From Halorubrum sp. SD626R (GTDB lineage: Archaea > Halobacteriota > Halobacteria > Halobacteriales > Haloferacaceae), in contig NZ_CVRT01000030.1 of the NCBI RefSeq assembly GCF_001261915.1, forward strand, positions 1 to 64,000: DNA of 64,000 bases, in the 5' to 3' direction. A model generated the notes under the pieces. The model had not been told where the DNA came from and searched no databases. It saw only the letters and a list, made by a program, of their open reading frames with translations. This document shows positions 25,242-52,277 of the stretch, piece after piece. The position numbers and the translations under genes are program-made. The first letter of the stretch is position 1; every line of letters starts with the position of its first letter.

Positions 25242-25673
25242 CTAGTCGAGAGCGTATCCCCACTCCTTGAGGACATCCACGACATCGTCTGTATGTTGAA
25301 GCCCGACTAATAACGCTGCTTCACGGAGATCTGCTTTTCGAACACTTTCCCCGAGGCGACTCTCGATTAGTGACTTCTGTGTCCGCTGGACGTCCATTGT
25401 CTCTTCTTGGAGGTGCAGTTGGACTGTCTGTTCGCGCCCGTCAGTGATACTGTTTCGCCGGAGAATCCATGGGATATCCCCCGCTGAAGTGTTGCTGACA
25501 CCCTCCTCAACGGTGGTTTCCGTTCCGGTTTCGATTTCTACCTTGCTGGACTGATTCTCCTCTATGCCGCTGTCCTCGCCAGCTGACGACTCTGTGTCGA
25601 ACGCTGACTCGCTGTCGTCTGTTTCCTCTTCGTCGTCCCACCCGTTGACAGTGCCCTCTTTGAATCCCCCCAT
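25242..25673 (-). CDS. Small acidic partner of ParA
   Basis: 143 residues. The first ~65 are disordered and very acidic (DDEEETDDSESAFDTESS). The C-terminal ~75 resemble a small DNA-binding or dimerisation domain (RRNSITDGREQTVQLHLQEE, then a helical tail ending KEWGYALD). The start overlaps the ParA stop by one base. By position it is the adaptor that would couple ParA to the partition site, the role of ParB or ParG; the sequence itself is not recognisable as ParB. Confidence 0.65.
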   Translation of the reverse strand: MGGFKEGTVNGWDDEEETDDSESAFDTESSAGEDSGIEENQSSKVEIETGTETTVEEGVSNTSAGDIPWILRRNSITDGREQTVQLHLQEETMDVQRTQKSLIESRLGESVRKADLREAALLVGLQHTDDVVDVLKEWGYALD

Positions 25674-26554
25674 CAGATAGTCACCTCCTCAGGGTCGTCT
25701 AAGGCGCCTGGTTCAGGCGGAGACGGGGCGGTAATTCCGCCTTGCGTCTCAAGGAACCGAGCAATTCGGTCGAACTTGGCTAGCGTCTCAACCTCGTAGT
25801 CACGACGCCGACTCCGGTGCGTTCGGACGAACTCGAAGGCACTGCACTGATGTCGCCAACAGCCTTCCATCATTGATGTCCGGTCGCCGATTACCTCGGG
25901 TACCTCGAAGGGTACCTCCTCAACGATCTCATTCTGGTCTTTCGTCCCCTTGAACTCGATTGGGACCGCTCCAAGGACGCCGACGTCGATATTCAACTCG
26001 CCTGCGAAGTTCGTTGCCAGCTCCTCTAAGCCCTCCACAGACGCTTCACCCTTCGCAGATGGCTCAAACGGAATGAGGAGGTTCCGCGTCGCGTAAATCG
26101 CGTTATATAGGTGATCTGACTCCGTCGCCGGTGGATCACAGATGAGGACATCGTACCGGTCGGGGATATCATTTTCAGCGAGGACTCGACGGAGTTGCGC
26201 GTAGATGTTGTACGCATCGCCGAAGTCCTCTGCACGACTCTTTTCGCGGGCGAGGTGGTCTGAGAGGTCTGAAAGCGTGTTATGTTCTGGAATGATATCG
26301 ATACCCTCTCCGGTGCGAATCAGATCGTCGAAATTCCCACCCGGGTTATCGACGAGGTGTCGAACAAGGCTGTCCGCGGACGAATCACTCCGTGCGTCGT
26401 CGACGTCGAATAGTCGACTCAGATTACCATCTTGTGGGTCGAGCGGGATCACCAGGACATCTAGTCCAGCCCGAGCGTGTGCACAGGCAATGTTCGCTGT
26501 CAACGACGTCTTGCCAACGCCGCCAGCCTCGCTGTAGACCGTATACGAGAGCAT
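25673..26554 (-). CDS. parA: ParA-family partition ATPase
   Basis: 293 residues. The P-loop is SEAGGVGKTSLTANIA; the signature lysine of the deviant Walker A (K-G-G-x-x-K-T/S) is replaced by Ala, which I recall as common in haloarchaeal homologues. Walker A' is VLVIPLDPQDGNLSRLF and Walker B is DVLICDPPATES. The protein should bind DNA non-specifically and drive plasmid segregation with the small gene downstream. The repeats at 26603-26703 lie just upstream and are a natural candidate for its centromere or operator. Confidence 0.85.
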   Translation of the reverse strand: MLSYTVYSEAGGVGKTSLTANIACAHARAGLDVLVIPLDPQDGNLSRLFDVDDARSDSSADSLVRHLVDNPGGNFDDLIRTGEGIDIIPEHNTLSDLSDHLAREKSRAEDFGDAYNIYAQLRRVLAENDIPDRYDVLICDPPATESDHLYNAIYATRNLLIPFEPSAKGEASVEGLEELATNFAGELNIDVGVLGAVPIEFKGTKDQNEIVEEVPFEVPEVIGDRTSMMEGCWRHQCSAFEFVRTHRSRRRDYEVETLAKFDRIARFLETQGGITAPSPPEPGALDDPEEVTI

Positions 26555-30908: not shown

Positions 30909-31493
30909 CTACGGGCTAAACACGTTCTCAAACAGTATCGCGTTTGATTTTGTATGGATGATAATAACTTTGAGTTTATCCGCATCTGGGCCTGTTCTCT
31001 CAGGCAAACTGCGGAAGTCGGCTCCACCTACATTTATTTCGAATTGAATTGTCTCTCCGACATTCCATATATTGTTGTCAGCTGGGTAGTCCTCTATTAT
31101 GACTTGGTTTGGATCTGCGGGACCCGCGTCTCCATACCCTTTGCTAATCAATCCATTGTCCTCTTGGAGGTTCTCTTCATCAATATCACTATTCTGAGCA
31201 GGTAAATTGATTAGACGCTCGTTGCTATCTACACCCGGACCAGACGCTTTGACGATTATCTCTATATTTTCAACCTTCACGCTATCTCCCGCAAGATGAG
31301 TTACTCGAACTTCTTGATCGTCCGCTCCTGGAACAAAATCACCACTCGTTTGACCAACAATCGGTGCGGGTTCGTTCAGGTCTTCTGTGATGGGAAGAGC
31401 GGCAGCAGAAACAGCTATCCCCAGAATAACGACGATTGCGACCATCAAAATAGTTGAAATGACAGAAGATACTGCACGATCCAGCTGAGTCAT
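30909..31493 (-). CDS. Type IV pilin-like protein (archaeal pilin N-domain)
   Basis: 194 residues from ATG 31493 (MTQLDRAVSSVISTIL). The short charged N-terminus, the DRAVS cleavage region and the following hydrophobic segment (ILMVAIVVILGIAVSAAAL) are the signature of archaeal type IV pilins processed by PibD. The rest is a beta-rich acidic domain. No pilus assembly genes are nearby, so it is an orphan pilin that would be assembled by a chromosomal machine. The ~230-base gap to the preceding gene shows nothing else. Confidence 0.82.
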   Translation of the reverse strand: MTQLDRAVSSVISTILMVAIVVILGIAVSAAALPITEDLNEPAPIVGQTSGDFVPGADDQEVRVTHLAGDSVKVENIEIIVKASGPGVDSNERLINLPAQNSDIDEENLQEDNGLISKGYGDAGPADPNQVIIEDYPADNNIWNVGETIQFEINVGGADFRSLPERTGPDADKLKVIIIHTKSNAILFENVFSP

Positions 31494-31859
31494 GCGCATG
31501 GGTACATCCTATCAACAAAATAAGTTCCCGATTCGCTCCTGGGTACGTTTGTCGTCTCTCGCACGAATATCAACACAGTATTTCCATTAGCATCGACAAT
31601 GACTGGCTTTACTGTTCGAAACGCGGAAGCAACGATGGATACTCCTGCGACTGAATTACTCTGTGAGACGCGGGAAGCAGATCAGTACCAGCTGGAATAA
31701 TTTCGGTTGTCCCTGCCTCGTTCTTGTGTCGGGATCGCTCGGGTGCAATTATGGACTGGTAATCTATTCTGAGAAAAATTCCAGCACTGCGACGCGATAG
31801 GCGACGGTCAACGGGGCGCGACTCACCTCGGTTCCACATCGATCGCGTCACTCCACACT

Positions 31860-33100
31860 CCACATGACTCACACTCGACACTCCACGATTACGACTGTCT
31901 CATTGAGGGGTCAAGCTCACGACGCGGGTGACGATCCACGCTCGCGACGACGACGATCGACGGTGCGGGGAGAGCGCGGCACACGCGCTGTCGACGAGAC
32001 GCGAGTTCGGCTGCGGCGGTCCACGCGGCGACGTGTTGTCGCGGTAAGCACGCCTTGGTCGACGGTCGTCTCTCGCGCTCGTGGAGCGGTGCTGTTGGCG
32101 GTCGCGAAGCGGTCACAACGAGTGCTCGCTGCGGTGCTGTCTGCGGTCGTGTCTCTGTGTCGATCGTCGTTGTGAGAACACGGTGTTAGGCGCACACCCC
32201 ACGTAGGCATTATTGCTGATTACTACTAATTGTATAGAACTTGGGTGTAGCGCGGTGGATCGGCGTCGACGTGCGTGGGTGTCGCGGCGGTCGCGACGCG
32301 TCGTGCTGTGCGTCTGTTCGCGTCGGTCGGTCAGTGCGACTCGTACTCGTCGCGCGGGCATCGTCTGCGTCGTCGACGGCGACGATCCACGCTGGCAACG
32401 ACGACGATCGACGGCGGGTATAGAGCGTGAGATTCAGCGGTCAACGTGTGGTGCGAACGCGACGCGATCGACGATCGTCTCTCGCGAACACGACGCGGAC
32501 ATTCTGCGGTCGACGCGATCTGCTCGCGGTGCTGGTGCGGTCGTGATCGACAGCGTCGAACTCGTGGTTCGAGTCGGTGTTGAGGCGCACCCCACGTGCG
32601 GATCGTTGCTGTAACGAAACGAGTGCAACGAAGTGGGGTCAACGAGATGGCGCACGGTCAACGTGCGTCGTCGAGTCGCGTTGAAGTCACGGCTGATCGT
32701 CGTCGTGGGCGGTCACGCGAGAGCGCGAGCTCGCACTCGATGTGTGGTCATCGTCTGCGTCGTCGACGGCGACGATCGACGCGACGCGTCTGGGGTTCGA
32801 GTCTGCGCTGCGCGCTGCGTCTGTCCTCGTGATTGAGCTCGTCGATCGTCTCACTTGACGTTCGTGATCGCGGCGTCGTCGCGACGATCCAGGTGGTTTT
32901 TCTCATATTTCTGGTATACTGTGCGAGATCGGTTTCTGGTATCGACGGCGATGATTGTGTCGCTGGTTCGAGTGCGATCAGCGCACGAATTTGTATTGGG
33001 TTCCGCGTCGTCGTCTCCACGGTCCACGGTCGTCGTCGCGTTGTGGATAGAGTCTGATGGCGACACGATGGACCCCATGATCGATTTCTCGAATTGGTAA
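31860..33100. repeat. CpG-dense degenerate tandem array of ~400-base units, no convincing gene
   Basis: Extremely rich in CGACG, CGTCG and GATCG. Ordered blocks recur. The block GACGATC(C/G)ACG recurs near 31931, 32388 and 32770. GGTCGTCTCTCGCG near 32065 is matched by ATCGTCTCTCGCG near 32475. A GCGGTGCTG...GCGGTCGTG block and a GGCGCAC(AC)CCCACGT block (~32190, ~32585) each appear twice. CATCGTCTGCGTCGTCGACG appears exactly at ~32360 and ~32750. Spacing is ~380-450 bases, so these are three decayed copies of one unit. Frames are open on both strands simply because stop codons are rare in such sequence; their products are Arg/Val/Ser-rich and un-haloarchaeal. Confidence 0.65.
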
Positions 33101-33301
33101 GTGGGTGGTGTCGTGTCTATTAGTGCGGTCGATGCGGGGGTGCGGTATATTGAGGGGGTGAATGGACCCTTAATTCCGAATACCATTTATTAACGTCTGT
33201 TTCAGCGGTGTAATACTGAATACTAAGTATTATACCACTAATTAAGCCCCATTTATCGGTAGGTATGGAAGAGTCCGCACTATTAAGCCCCTAGTAAGCA
33301 C
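33101..33301. other. Non-coding AT-rich transition
   Basis: Between the CpG-dense array and the 40-bp repeats. Contains AATACTGAATACTAAGTATT (~33213-33232), an imperfect palindrome related to the repeats that follow, and no gene. Confidence 0.4.
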
Positions 33302-33397
33302 CTCGAAACTGAATATTGGATATTGTGGGCTACAACTAGTCCTCAATACTGAATATTAGATATTGTGGGCTAGAACTGGTCATGAATACTGAATAGC
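33302..33397. repeat. 40-bp direct repeats in an AT-rich tract
   Basis: Two adjacent 40-base copies (33302-33341 and 33342-33381) share the core ATATTGTGGGCTA and differ at about five positions. A partial third (GAATACTGAATAG) follows at ~33384-33396. The tract 33190-33480 is far more AT-rich than the window average. Tandem repeats beside an AT-rich segment are the usual look of a replication or protein-binding origin, but no replication gene is adjacent. Confidence 0.6.
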
Positions 33398-33498
33398 TCT
33401 TATTACGGTATTAGAATAGTAGTGTGAAAATCAATGATCATAACAAATACGATACTAGAAATTCTTATAAAATATAAAGGAATTGAAAATACACAACG

Positions 33499-33609
33499 GT
33501 CTTCACGGAGGACGAACTGGAGCTGGCTAACGTAGAATTTCACTTAACTGTCGAAGATATTGAGCAGAATACTAATCGTTACGACAATACGGAATCGGGT
33601 GAAGAGTAG
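33499..33609 (+). pseudogene. C-terminal remnant of an acidic protein gene
   Basis: An open frame of 36 codons and a stop (VFTEDELELANVEFHLTVED, ending TESGEE). Its acidic composition is typical of real haloarchaeal coding sequence, but it has no start codon: a TGA lies five codons upstream. It is probably the 3' end of a gene lost to rearrangement. No family recognised. Confidence 0.4.
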
Positions 33610-33766
33610 CGAATATCAGCGTGCTTCGGGAAAACGAGTCTGACCAAATCGTAGGTTGTCTAATGGGTCTGCAATGGCGAGAACGGGCGCGGCTTCGCGT
33701 CTGATGAAATGAGGATTTTCGCGTTCATCCCCAACTGTGGAGTCGCGATAGTTCGGTCCTCAAAGC

Positions 33767-33937
33767 ATGGAGTTGACTGACAAAGGTCGGAAAGTTGTCT
33801 CAGAAGTGGAAGCAGAGCGCGGTAGCCAGAGTGGGGGCGTTGGCTTTGTCTCTGAGCCACGGATTTACAAGCTAGAACAGGACATTTCTGACATTCACCA
33901 AGGCTTGAAAATATGTCTGAATCAATCGCGGAAATAG
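33767..33937 (+). CDS. Small protein or C-terminal regulator fragment, 56 aa
   Basis: From ATG 33767 the frame encodes MELTDKGRKVVSEVEAERGS and a helical tail (IYKLEQDISDIHQGLK). The opening resembles the wing end of winged-helix regulators (x-L-T-x-K-G-R). It could be a genuine small gene or the 3' part of a broken one. There is no clear promoter. Upstream, to 33610, I see only uninformative frames. Confidence 0.4.
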   Translation: MELTDKGRKVVSEVEAERGSQSGGVGFVSEPRIYKLEQDISDIHQGLKICLNQSRK

Positions 33938-34074
33938 AGCAATCTCAGATGAGTGTGATCGACACCGACGTGGCCGATTGACTTGCTGCTGTACACACAT
34001 TATTCCCTCGACACCAATTCGTCCTTAGTGTGATATTCGGGGCCGAAGGACCCGGGGCTTCATACTGATACGAT

Positions 34075-34371
34075 TCACGAATCTGTATCGGATGGTGGTC
34101 TCTCTGAAAGCCGATTAAATCGCTCTTGAGCCGTATCGGAACGGGTTTTTGTCTGTTCAGATCTGTGCTCTACCGAAAATATATCACCATCATGTACCTC
34201 TACAGTCAGAATCGCCTCAGCGTGACGTCCGTCCGCGGGCAACTCCCCGGGATCGAGGACCGCGTTGCCCACCTCCTCACCATCCTGCTCGAAGAACACC
34301 GTTGCGAGCCCGTCTTCAATCGAATCGACAACTGCAGTGTACTCGCCGTCTGGAAGGTCAATTGTAGTCAT
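34075..34371 (-). CDS. DUF3006-like small protein, downstream of the broken metallo-beta-lactamase gene
   Basis: 98 residues. Beta-strand-rich N-terminal two thirds with MTTIDLPDGEYTAVVDSIED and GLATVFFEQDGEE, the compact barrel-like pattern of DUF3006 proteins, and a disordered acidic tail. Its ATG overlaps the last codon of the upstream gene. DUF3006 proteins are often encoded next to ComEC-like metallo-beta-lactamase proteins, as here; the molecular role is unknown. Confidence 0.75.
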   Translation of the reverse strand: MTTIDLPDGEYTAVVDSIEDGLATVFFEQDGEEVGNAVLDPGELPADGRHAEAILTVEVHDGDIFSVEHRSEQTKTRSDTAQERFNRLSERPPSDTDS

Positions 34372-35794
34372 TAGTAGGACTCCTCTAGCACTCGGTCGCC
34401 CTCGTTTGTAGTTACGATCACCGTATCGCCATCATTATTCCAGATTGGTGACCCCGATCCCCAGTACAGTTCGCTGTCAGTTGCGGTGCCACTCCCGGTA
34501 TACAGCGTCACTGTCGCTCCGGGAGCCAGCATGACACCATCCGGAATCGTGTACGTGTGGTCGGCGTCGTCTGCGACCGTCCACCCTGACAGATCGAGGG
34601 TCTCAGTCCCGCTGTTCTCAAAGACAACATACTCATCGTTGAGGTTCTCACCGTCTCGTCCCTCAGCGTCTGCGTTGATCTCTGCGACCGCGAGCCCGCT
34701 GGTAGTCGAATCTGTGGTGGTATCGGATCCGGAATCCGTCTCCGCTGGCTCGCCACCGGTGTCAATCGATCCGGTTCCCTCACCACCGATCCGATCGCGT
34801 TCCGTGACGCTGCCCGCTGCGCCCGGCTCGACAGTGCTCCCATCGCGAATGCTGAGAGGTTCGGTTGGAGCCTCCTGTTGGGTTTGTACAGAAACGGCTT
34901 GGCCATCACTCACGAGTACAATATCACCGTGTGTGGCGGTCCAGTAAGTCGGGATTGAACGATCGGACAGCCGTTGGAGAACGTCCTCATGCGGATGCCC
35001 GTACTGTGAATCATACGCGCTTGAGATGACGACGGCCTGTGGCTGGACGGCATCTAAGAAGGGTCCACTAGAGGAACTGGCCGACCCGTGGCGGCCAGCT
35101 TTGAGGATCGTCGATTCGAGCTGACTCCCGTACGCCTCGATGAGGTACGCTTCTTAGTTATCCTCGGCATTCCCGGACAGGAGGAAGCTTGTCTCCCCGT
35201 GGGTGAGTTTCAGGACGATGCTGTTTTCGTTGCGAGCTTCGCTTTCGAGATACGGCTCTGGTGGGCCCAAGACATCGACGTCGACGGCACCGAAATCAAT
35301 CGTGTCGCCCTCACGCGTTTCGTACAGCGTCACGTCGTGGGCCTCGATGGCGTCGAGGTACTCGGCGTAGGTTTGTGTGCTCGCTGCGATCCCGGGATCA
35401 TAGACGGCGCCGATGCCGTCGGCTTCCGTCTCGTAGTACTCATGATTGCGGCGTTCCCGCCGATGTGGTCGGCGTCGTTGTGGGAGGTGACGAGATGGTC
35501 GATGCTCGTAATGTCGTGTGCTTGGAGATACTCCAGGACGTAGTCACCATCATCGTTGTAGTGGCCGGTATCGACGAGCATAGTGTCACCGTCGGGGCCG
35601 ACGATGAGTGTATTCACTGACTGGCCAACGTCGATGTAATGGATCTCGATTGTTCCGTTTGCGGTGGGTGTCGACTCGGTACCGGTCTCTGGGGCGCTTG
35701 CAGACGGATCGCTGGGAACTGCGCCTGCACAGCCGGCAAGGAGGACGATACCCACGATAATGAGGAGTCGACCGCGACTCCCGACGGAGTTCAT
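34371..35794 (-). pseudogene. Secreted metallo-beta-lactamase (ComEC-like) plus lamin-tail protein, inactivated
   Basis: The start at 35794 has a signal peptide and lipobox (LLAGCAG). It is followed by the ComEC-like metallo-beta-lactamase core (VDTGHYNDDGDYVLEYL, TSHNDADHIGGN). Near 35441 the frame shifts by one base; the next frame continues the domain (YYETEADGIGAVYDPGI). A TAA at 35154-35156 then interrupts it within AEDN-EAYLIEAYG. The remainder (to 34371) encodes the end of the domain and a lamin-tail beta-sandwich (EYVVFENSGTETLDLSGWTV). Two separate lesions make a functional product unlikely. A relaxed-selection relic or sequencing error are the alternatives. Confidence 0.8.
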
Positions 35795-42855: not shown

Positions 42856-43299
42856 CAAACGTGAACGAAGTAGCGGGCCCGGTTCCGAACGGCCCCGTTC
42901 GCCCATTACGTCCGACGCCGACAATACATAATTGATCCCCGATCTGAGGACGCGCCGATAAGTGATGTGTAGTTGACATTTTCCCCGCGCTAAAGCGCGA
43001 GGCTTTCTCCTCTATTCTCCGTAATATTGTCGCCCACGCCAACGTATGGACCACTACCGGCGAGTATCAAGTTGACTTGAAACTTGCAGATACCGTGATA
43101 GCAGGGATTTCACAGCTGAATCAGTAATTTTCGATTACTGGTACCGAAGAGAAATCGTCTCTATCTCCATTGGCTCAAGCGACGAAACTGAGCCGATTGC
43201 GCTTCGAGTCGGAGGGTCGTTCTCGGATCTCGGTCAGACAAACGAGACCATCTAATCGGGACCAAGGAGCTTCGCGAGTGTTCGTTCAAGAGCGAATCA
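42856..43299. other. Gap with IS200/IS605-type end hairpin
   Basis: No gene. CGCGC-TAAA-GCGCG (42986-42999), within TTCCCCGCGC...GCGCGAGGCTTTC, is the kind of end hairpin found in haloarchaeal IS200/IS605 elements. The element's genes are missing here. A remnant TnpB 3' end lies at 45.7 kb. Confidence 0.45.
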
Positions 43300-45714: not shown

Positions 45715-45914
45715 TCACCCCGAGGTCAGGCCTCGGGGCTTCCTGCTTCCACGACGCGTTTTGCAGGAAGAAACGGTTCCCGTAGGGAGCGCAGTCTGCA
45801 CAGGCGTTGGTTCGGAGAGTCCCGCCCCTATCTGTGAGCGACCGCGAGAAAGAATGTTCTTCACCGCGTTCAAGTCTCTATCTTCGGTGTGACCGCACGC
45901 TGGGCATGAGTGTT
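45715..45914 (-). pseudogene. C-terminal remnant of an IS200/IS605 TnpB
   Basis: Minus-strand frame ending TGA at 45715-45717. It carries the TnpB zinc-finger half EHSCPACGHTEDRDLNAV followed by KNILSR, the signature of the TnpB C-terminus, and a basic tail (KTRRGSRKPRG). Just upstream (towards 45914) a TGA and a shifted SEFE frame show it is broken. The 3' end overlaps an 8-bp perfect stem CCCCGAGG/CCTCGGGG (45718-45725 and 45731-45738), where the element's right end and guide-RNA scaffold normally lie. TnpB is an RNA-guided nuclease; this relic cannot act. Confidence 0.8.
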
Positions 45915-45947
45915 CTCGAATTCAGAGTGATTTTGCTGATTGGCGTA

Positions 45948-51722: not shown

Positions 51723-52277
51723 CTGTAACGCCCATGATTCGGCTTCTTTCGCGCATGGACCAGTCAGCACGACGTGCTCTAAGGCACTGAATACAGGTCG
51801 GTCTCTTGCGTCCCATGCTTACCTCACGCTCTCTAGGGATAGCAGTGTTTCCATCGAGTCAGCACGGCTATCAGAACATCTATCTGAACTGGCAGAAGAT
51901 CCGACGGTCAATACGCACTCAGGATAGTACGGCTGGTTCAGTAGTTCGAGAGCGAAATGAACGCTGTCGACGTGCTGTATGAATCCTCTATATCTCGCAG
52001 GCTGATCCTATCAGATCCTATGGGTTTCAACAGAGCCCAAATGAATAAGAATGCGCCAAGGCCCGCCTCAAAGAATCGTTCGTTTAGACCGTCGTTGACG
52101 CTTTCAAAACCTGATTTCAATCACTGCTGACAGAGTTTCGCGAAACTATCTCAAGTGGGCCAACGAAACGCAGTTCGCCGCGTGGATAGACGACTGATGG
52201 AATTCGCTGCGATTTATGTATCGGACCCTCTTCTAACAGAGTAGACGCTGTGACGACGCACTGTCGCTTCGACTACC

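Follow-up and report, generated by a model that had tools for sequence, protein, structure and literature searches.

A decayed, gene-free repeat array in Halorubrum sp. SD626R that resembles the control region of VirD4-linked mobile elements

Transfer origins that function together with a TraM-type accessory protein are known in bacteria. The oriT of the F plasmid is a non-coding region that lies beside the gene for the coiled-coil DNA-binding protein TraM and contains direct-repeat binding sites and an inverted repeat, with TraD encoded nearby. In Sulfolobus, plasmid pNOB8 has a partition site with a winged helix-turn-helix (wHTH) protein of the AspA/ParB type. To our knowledge, no transfer origin has been identified in archaea so far. 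Archaeal conjugative elements encode coupling ATPases and VirB4 ATPases, yet no relaxase can be recognized in them, and it is unresolved how they process DNA for transfer (PMC9905601). In haloarchaea, origins of the Rep-Arvir (DUF7845) type consist of a hairpin with an inverted repeat close by (PMC13107129).

The window analyzed here, 64,000 nucleotides of Halorubrum sp. SD626R (genome G000), lacks any intact gene along 2.5 kb between a type IV pilin gene (30909-31499, -) and a cluster of DUF3006, lamin-tail-domain (LTD) and metallo-beta-lactamase genes (34075-35794, -). The array in this stretch (Table 1) is carried on a 160,576-base contig. The first-pass annotation had placed it at 31860-33100; the location holds, while by homology the array region including its hairpin border is slightly larger, spanning about 31787-33136.

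Table 1. Positions of the array, its repeated blocks and the adjoining features in the window.
Feature	Position	Strand	Basis, relatives or further copies
Remnant, 3' end of AbrB-like gene	31582-31740	+	74.8% DNA match to L024 1059-901
CGWCG/GATC-dense non-coding array with irregular ~370-455-nt internal repeats	31787-33061	+	Homologs L013, L014, L023, L024, L069, L015
13 CGRTCVACG sites (12 + and 1 -)	31805-33028	mostly +	Pattern count, orientation bias, shuffles
Block A, copy 1	31920-31976	+	D2 family
Block A, copy 2 (81% identical)	32371-32427	+	D2/D3 families; partial again at 32761-32782
Block B, TCGTCTCTCGCG	32059-32077	+	D4 family; again 32468-32486; degenerate copy 32839-32857
Block C, GCACACCCCACGT..	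32192-32218	+	D10 family; again 32585-32611
Block D, CATCGTCTGCGTCGTCGACGGCGACGATCCACGC	32340-32392	+	D3 family; again 32730-32782 (87%)
Terminal hairpin, GACACGAT..ACCCC / GGGT..GTCGTGTC	33062-33117	+	Array/iteron border; compensatory changes across six elements
Invariant TATTAGTGCGG, immediately 3' of hairpin	33118-33128	+	Alignments A4/A5
AT-rich zone, iteron-like repeats of AATACTGAATATT type	33137-33495	+	Repeat search
Pseudogene of winged-helix/coiled-coil accessory protein (stops and frameshifts)	33496-34050	+	Intact relatives L025-L029

Internal repetition is pronounced: 98 20-nt windows within 31860-33150 match elsewhere in that interval at 16 or more of 20 positions, compared to a mean of 7.2 and a maximum of 22 in 60 order-2 (composition-matched) shuffles of the array, and to 3 and 5 in two control gene stretches of the window. 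Repeat diagonals are clear in a dotplot-type comparison, with best offsets of 454, 393, 368 and 412. The blocks follow the order given in the first-pass annotation, with GACGATC(C/G)ACG at 31920, 32371 and 32761, while GGCGCAC(A)CCCCACGT (32192 and 32585) and CATCGTCTGCGTCGTCGACG (32360 and 32750) have two copies only; block D is also present in L013, L014, L015 and L069. The array consists of two full units and a truncated third, so the earlier proposal of at least three copies of a ~400-base unit was right about the repetition and wrong about three complete copies. Tandem Repeats Finder reports no array here because the unit spacing is too irregular (offsets 368-454); this absence of regular repeat units also led us to reject a CRISPR array or tandem satellite, and no insertion sequence was recognized in the array. 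The high density of CGACG, CGTCG and GATC words noted earlier is borne out (CGWCG, 10-18 per 400 nt vs. mostly 0-4 in the neighborhood; GATC, up to 8 per 400 nt), with CpG observed/expected reaching 1.94, and the array stops, as described, where AT-rich repeats start (AT-rich from ~33137, with 40-bp repeats at 33301-33395).

The array is non-coding. Between the copies of Halorubrum amylolyticum (G031) and Halorubrum laminariae (G032), array substitutions are flat across codon phases (56/48/55 of about 382 each) and indels of 1, 2, 3, 11 and 21 nt occur; the adjacent gene has phase substitutions of 84/42/21 and no indels. Open frames in the array are no longer than those of shuffles and none has a family-level protein match, while two weak Pfam matches in array frames were below the cut-off and judged to be chance. 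The phase test, the indels (of 1, 2 and 11 nt among others), the open-frame shuffles and the lack of protein families over the frames rule out a coding array, in agreement with the first-pass annotation that there is no gene and that the frames look accidental.

Homologous arrays are found in six other Halorubrum genomes: G031, G032, G072, Hd13 (G070), Atlit-26R and, in truncated form, G030; all were recovered by DNA searches except that of Atlit-26R, which came from a protein search. The intact order is array, hairpin with TATTAGTGCGG, AT-rich iteron-like zone, winged-helix/coiled-coil gene and a convergent gene for a VirD4/TraD-type ATPase. Four genomes (G031, G032, G072 and Atlit-26R) show this order, with the AT-rich zone after the array, the ~235-aa gene intact and a convergent gene for an ATPase of 1555-1668 aa, which in G072 carries a TraG-D_C domain. 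In Hd13 separate contigs carry the array and the ~235-aa gene, both of them at a contig end. Next to the Halorubrum copies we detected no VirB4. The G030 fragment (L015 2400-3110) lies against an interrupted ABC-transporter ATPase frame and near a Fic-family gene, which is also found in the G032 module. A plasmid DNA search with the array as query gave no match, and querying phage and viral contigs with the winged-helix protein or with a block of the array also returned nothing; isolated short array matches (about 25-60 nt) in other parts of haloarchaeal genomes were put down to chance or low complexity.

Array identity among G000, G031 and G032 is 84-87%, while G072 shows 60-64% identity in the array and 70-73% in the gene. 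The G031 and G032 arrays diverge by 13.7%, their genes by 27% and the 4-fold sites of those genes by 52%, whereas G072 differs from both by just 27-30% in the gene but by 36-40% in the array. Because G072 is more diverged in the array than in the gene, the high array identity of the other copies probably owes something to recombination of modules, and we reject strong purifying selection as its sole cause.

The copy in the window is a relic, since its winged-helix gene is a pseudogene and its ATPase is gone, with no close homolog of the coupling ATPase left in the window genome. The window holds what is very probably a decayed copy of a mobile-element control region. The AbrB-like remnant upstream reads TGFTVRNAEATMDTPATELLCETREADQ in frame 3, resembling AGFAARNAEATTDAPATELLREKRDSDQ, and an AbrB-like gene flanks the array in Hd13. 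The first-pass annotation had suggested a protein-binding array or an origin or partition region, which was the right kind of answer, although the wider VirD4/winged-helix context and the relic status were not part of that account.

Other features of the window concern its mobile content. In the DUF3006/LTD cluster, the metallo-beta-lactamase frame is short (154 aa) and perhaps truncated. On a Natronorubrum aibiense plasmid, a DUF3006 and ComEC/Rec2 pair (L081 11159-12455) is next to the VirD4 module, and the window cluster may be cargo of the same class of element. A ParA-type ATPase gene (25673-26554, -), 5 kb from the array, overlaps a small acidic gene (25242-25673, -); the two are possibly a partition pair. 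A 53-bp sequence with a GCGCTAAAGCGC hairpin (42973-43025), shared with L015 (two copies) and L024, looks like the end of an IS200/IS605-type (TnpB) element. Two further segments (51930-52036 and 45736-45918) match the array neighborhoods of G030 and Hd13 (L015, L024) and a TnpB-type gene of G072 (L023 5342-5523), and are likely insertion-sequence remnants.

The non-palindromic motif CGRTCVACG is strongly oriented along the array. Plus-strand sites begin at 31805, 31932, 31954, 32017, 32383, 32405, 32438, 32465, 32507, 32655, 32773 and 33020, and the only minus-strand site is at 32840; the window outside the array has 6 sites on each strand. In fixed segments the forward:reverse counts are 11:1 (G000), 11:2 (G031), 11:2 (G032), 7:1 (G072) and 13:1 (Atlit-26R), far in excess of shuffles and of the expected 0.1-0.6 or so per strand, although sites that were duplicated along with the repeat units are not mutually independent. 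The motif was derived from repeats of G000 and G072, so the only independent test is the count for Atlit-26R, which was fetched once the motif was fixed. Enrichment of CGRTCVACG is confined to Halorubrum, and we therefore rejected it as an array motif common to all elements.

Near the 3' end of the array, two blocks (TCCACGGTCCACGGTCG and TATTAGTGCGG) are invariant in six elements. In the terminal hairpin of these elements 93.6% of pairs are kept and four pairs are changed on both sides (9 such cells), and the covariation (0.323 vs. 0.147) was matched by none of 500 shuffles; the changes may reflect few events, as most of them separate two groups. Alignment A2 was too divergent for a pattern search, so the Halorubrum-only alignment A3 was used. 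The combined hairpin/TATTAGTGCGG pattern, with its G run intact, occurs nowhere in the genus but at array loci. TATTAGTGCGG is a candidate cleavage or loading site. The AT-rich zone beyond it is a probable operator of the winged-helix protein; its repeats are significant in Atlit-26R and in the Haloarcula plasmids pNG100 and pNYT2 and weaker elsewhere, and the iteron sequences differ from element to element while the winged-helix gene is kept.

The predicted structure of the winged-helix protein has an N-terminal winged helix (pLDDT mostly 80-89) and a long helix (residues 121-155). Its neighbors in the PDB are winged helices of the MarR type, at non-significant scores (E > 0.01), and no match to TraM was found in Pfam or NCBIfam. 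Homologs occur in 6 of 52 genomes of the same genus and in 16 of 391 sampled members of the class (a count that includes the weakest matches as listed), as well as on pNG100 and pNYT2. In G086 and G341 the winged-helix gene is convergent with a VirD4-type ATPase gene (a TraG-D_C domain is shown for the G341 ATPase), which is preceded in its operon by genes for a ~500-aa protein and a TraC/VirB4-like ATPase; the sequence at the array position is unrelated to that of Halorubrum. In G115, G153 and G101 a ~1000-aa protein, identified by position, is encoded 3-7 kb off in the corresponding place, with other genes between. On Halalkalicoccus jeotgali plasmid 2 and Halobacterium hubeiense pSTJ001, virD4 converges with a gene whose product is a distant relative (hhalign E 8e-6 and 2.8e-8), and the longest unannotated gap of the stretch is upstream of that gene.

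The gene-free regions themselves vary. Internal repetition is strong in Halorubrum, G341 and H. hubeiense and absent in pNG100, G115, G153 and H. jeotgali; composition is CpG-rich in Halorubrum and CpG-poor in G341, and an excess of T over A on the sense strand of the winged-helix gene is common. In G341 (L058), the region from -1420 to -330 upstream of the wHTH gene is CpG-depleted (o/e 0.47) and GCTG/CTGG-rich, has repeats spaced by ~52 nt and adjoins sequence of ordinary CpG content. Large frames lie by the wHTH gene in two loci (in oriented coordinates, L059 5895-12173, between the wHTH gene and the VirD4-like position, and L060 9160-10506); their N-termini suggest restriction-modification genes (type I-like; C5 DNA methyltransferase), and this gap may be a hotspot for defense cargo. 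No convergent wHTH gene was found in this position on six further haloarchaeal VirD4 plasmids (Natrinema, Halomontanus, Natronorubrum, Halorussus), so the layout is not universal among haloarchaeal VirD4 modules and represents one class of them. The Natrinema/Halomontanus-type modules share the TraM-recognition-domain ATPase, the VirB4-type ATPase and an uncharacterized protein between them; unlike these, the array-bearing group, a subset, has the convergent wHTH/coiled-coil gene.

We consider the array very probably a cis region of a mobile element, and would see it as the cis-acting control region of a haloarchaeal conjugative or mobilizable element with type IV secretion of the VirD4/VirB4 type. 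The constant gene-free region, hairpin border (in Halorubrum), AT-rich zone, winged-helix/coiled-coil protein and coupling ATPase form the arrangement of a relaxosome assembly site, in which an accessory protein would hand DNA to a coupling protein; intact copies beside a DNA-binding protein and a DNA-export pump suggest a start site of cell-to-cell transfer. The winged-helix protein would bind the AT-rich iterons just upstream of its own gene, which would both mark the site and make the protein its own repressor; through its C-terminal helices it may contact VirD4, as TraM contacts TraD in F-like plasmids. Transfer processing would begin at the hairpin and TATTAGTGCGG, and the oriented CGRTCVACG array would either be exported from the cell ahead of all other DNA or serve as a platform on which the processing machinery loads.

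Several features are those of a transfer origin: a non-coding, phase-flat cis site is linked to a VirD4-type ATPase in the intact copies; at the sequence level, an inverted repeat (the hairpin) lies beside a conserved short sequence (TATTAGTGCGG); and a predicted DNA-binding domain and helix, as in a TraM-like accessory protein, are encoded beside potential target repeats, most clearly in Atlit-26R and both Haloarcula plasmids. The locus resembles F-plasmid oriT/TraM/TraD in its non-coding site, direct repeats, inverted repeat, neighboring gene for a (predicted) coiled-coil DNA-binding protein and nearby TraG-D_C ATPase gene. It differs in that no relaxase gene was found, a winged helix takes the place of the TraM fold, the accessory gene is convergent rather than co-directional with virD4, an oriented motif array of ~1.3 kb is present, and the host is an archaeon. 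The relaxase family PF03432 was absent from the 11 genomes searched, and the scanned module proteins gave no relaxase match in Pfam or NCBIfam, which leaves room for nickases of another or a novel kind. As no MOBP relaxase was found in the 11 genomes, we do not claim membership in oriT; an oriT-like transfer-initiation region with a TraM-like accessory protein is a tentative reading of the function, to which we give slightly less than an even chance. Separately, PLSDB types a haloarchaeal plasmid (NC_014299.1, L072) as conjugative, with a MOBP relaxase and MPF_T.

Iterons beside a wHTH/coiled-coil gene would also fit a centromere, at which the protein would load on iterons and array as a ParB/AspA-like adaptor and segregate the element; the variation of the iterons between elements that keep the gene agrees with this, the window does encode a ParA-type ATPase, and pNOB8-type partition sites likewise have a wHTH gene beside repeated sites. 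However, the window ParA is separated from the array by unrelated genes, no ParA was recognized near the intact loci examined (by eye and in partial Pfam scans) and the constant partner is VirD4, while the non-palindromic, strand-biased array is unlike typical dimer-bound parS sites. We regard partition as unlikely. A replication origin is likewise unlikely; in this reading, initiation, by rolling circle or otherwise, would take place at the hairpin and TATTAGTGCGG, and an initiator would bind the array and iterons. In its favor, the combination of hairpin, conserved short sequence and AT-rich zone recalls an origin, Rep-Arvir origins of haloarchaeal viruses and plasmids similarly combine a mobile-element hairpin with adjacent binding repeats (putative here), and G153, G101 and G115 have DUF7845 genes within 9-35 kb on the upstream side of the module. 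Against this, the adjacent gene encodes VirD4 and no known initiator, DUF7845 is in most other genomes on another contig or hundreds of kb away and is missing from G031 despite its intact wHTH and VirD4 genes, and the orc1/cdc6 gene of pNG100 is about 9 kb from the corresponding site. A Rep-Arvir rolling-circle origin in particular would call for an adjacent DUF7845 gene, and the nearest one is ~8-9 kb away (G153).

The wide variation of the region between elements, from CpG-rich in Halorubrum to CpG-poor in G341 and with little repetition in some, is what might be expected of an expanded, drifting low-complexity spacer of no specific function upstream of an autoregulated wHTH gene. We find this improbable, given that recognizable arrays persist in seven Halorubrum genomes, that TCCACGGTCCACGGTCG and TATTAGTGCGG are invariant, and that oriented CGRTCVACG sites are far above shuffles. 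An uncharacterized RNA, as the first-pass annotation had also proposed, or more generally a long non-coding RNA made by the element, whether structured or regulatory, would be in keeping with strand-oriented repeats in a non-coding array and with the conserved terminal hairpin. It is nevertheless very unlikely, and for the array body the proposal finds no support: whole-array folding does not exceed that of dinucleotide shuffles (z -0.10 and 0.03), Rfam covariance models have no match within the window, and the covariation found by RNAalifold in the 3' part of the array is mainly in the terminal hairpin, where it is equally compatible with single-stranded DNA.

Returning to the transfer-origin reading, an archaeal arrangement of the oriT/TraM type that uses an oriented motif array and a winged-helix protein seems to be new, and no prior description of the array region was found in the literature searched, mostly outside subscription journals. 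It is possible, though on balance doubtful, that this is the first transfer origin to be recognized by its sequence in an archaeon; it would be bipartite (oriented CGRTCVACG array plus hairpin and iterons) and work with a winged-helix analog of TraM, a VirD4, no MOBP-type relaxase and possibly no known relaxase. The interest of the region lies in the unsolved problem of transfer origins in archaea. With its candidate accessory protein, iterons and conserved hairpin, this short cis region offers a concrete target for cloning and testing in haloarchaea, and the signature of a gene-free stretch, a wHTH/coiled-coil gene and a convergent VirD4 can be used to look for one class of element together with its relics.
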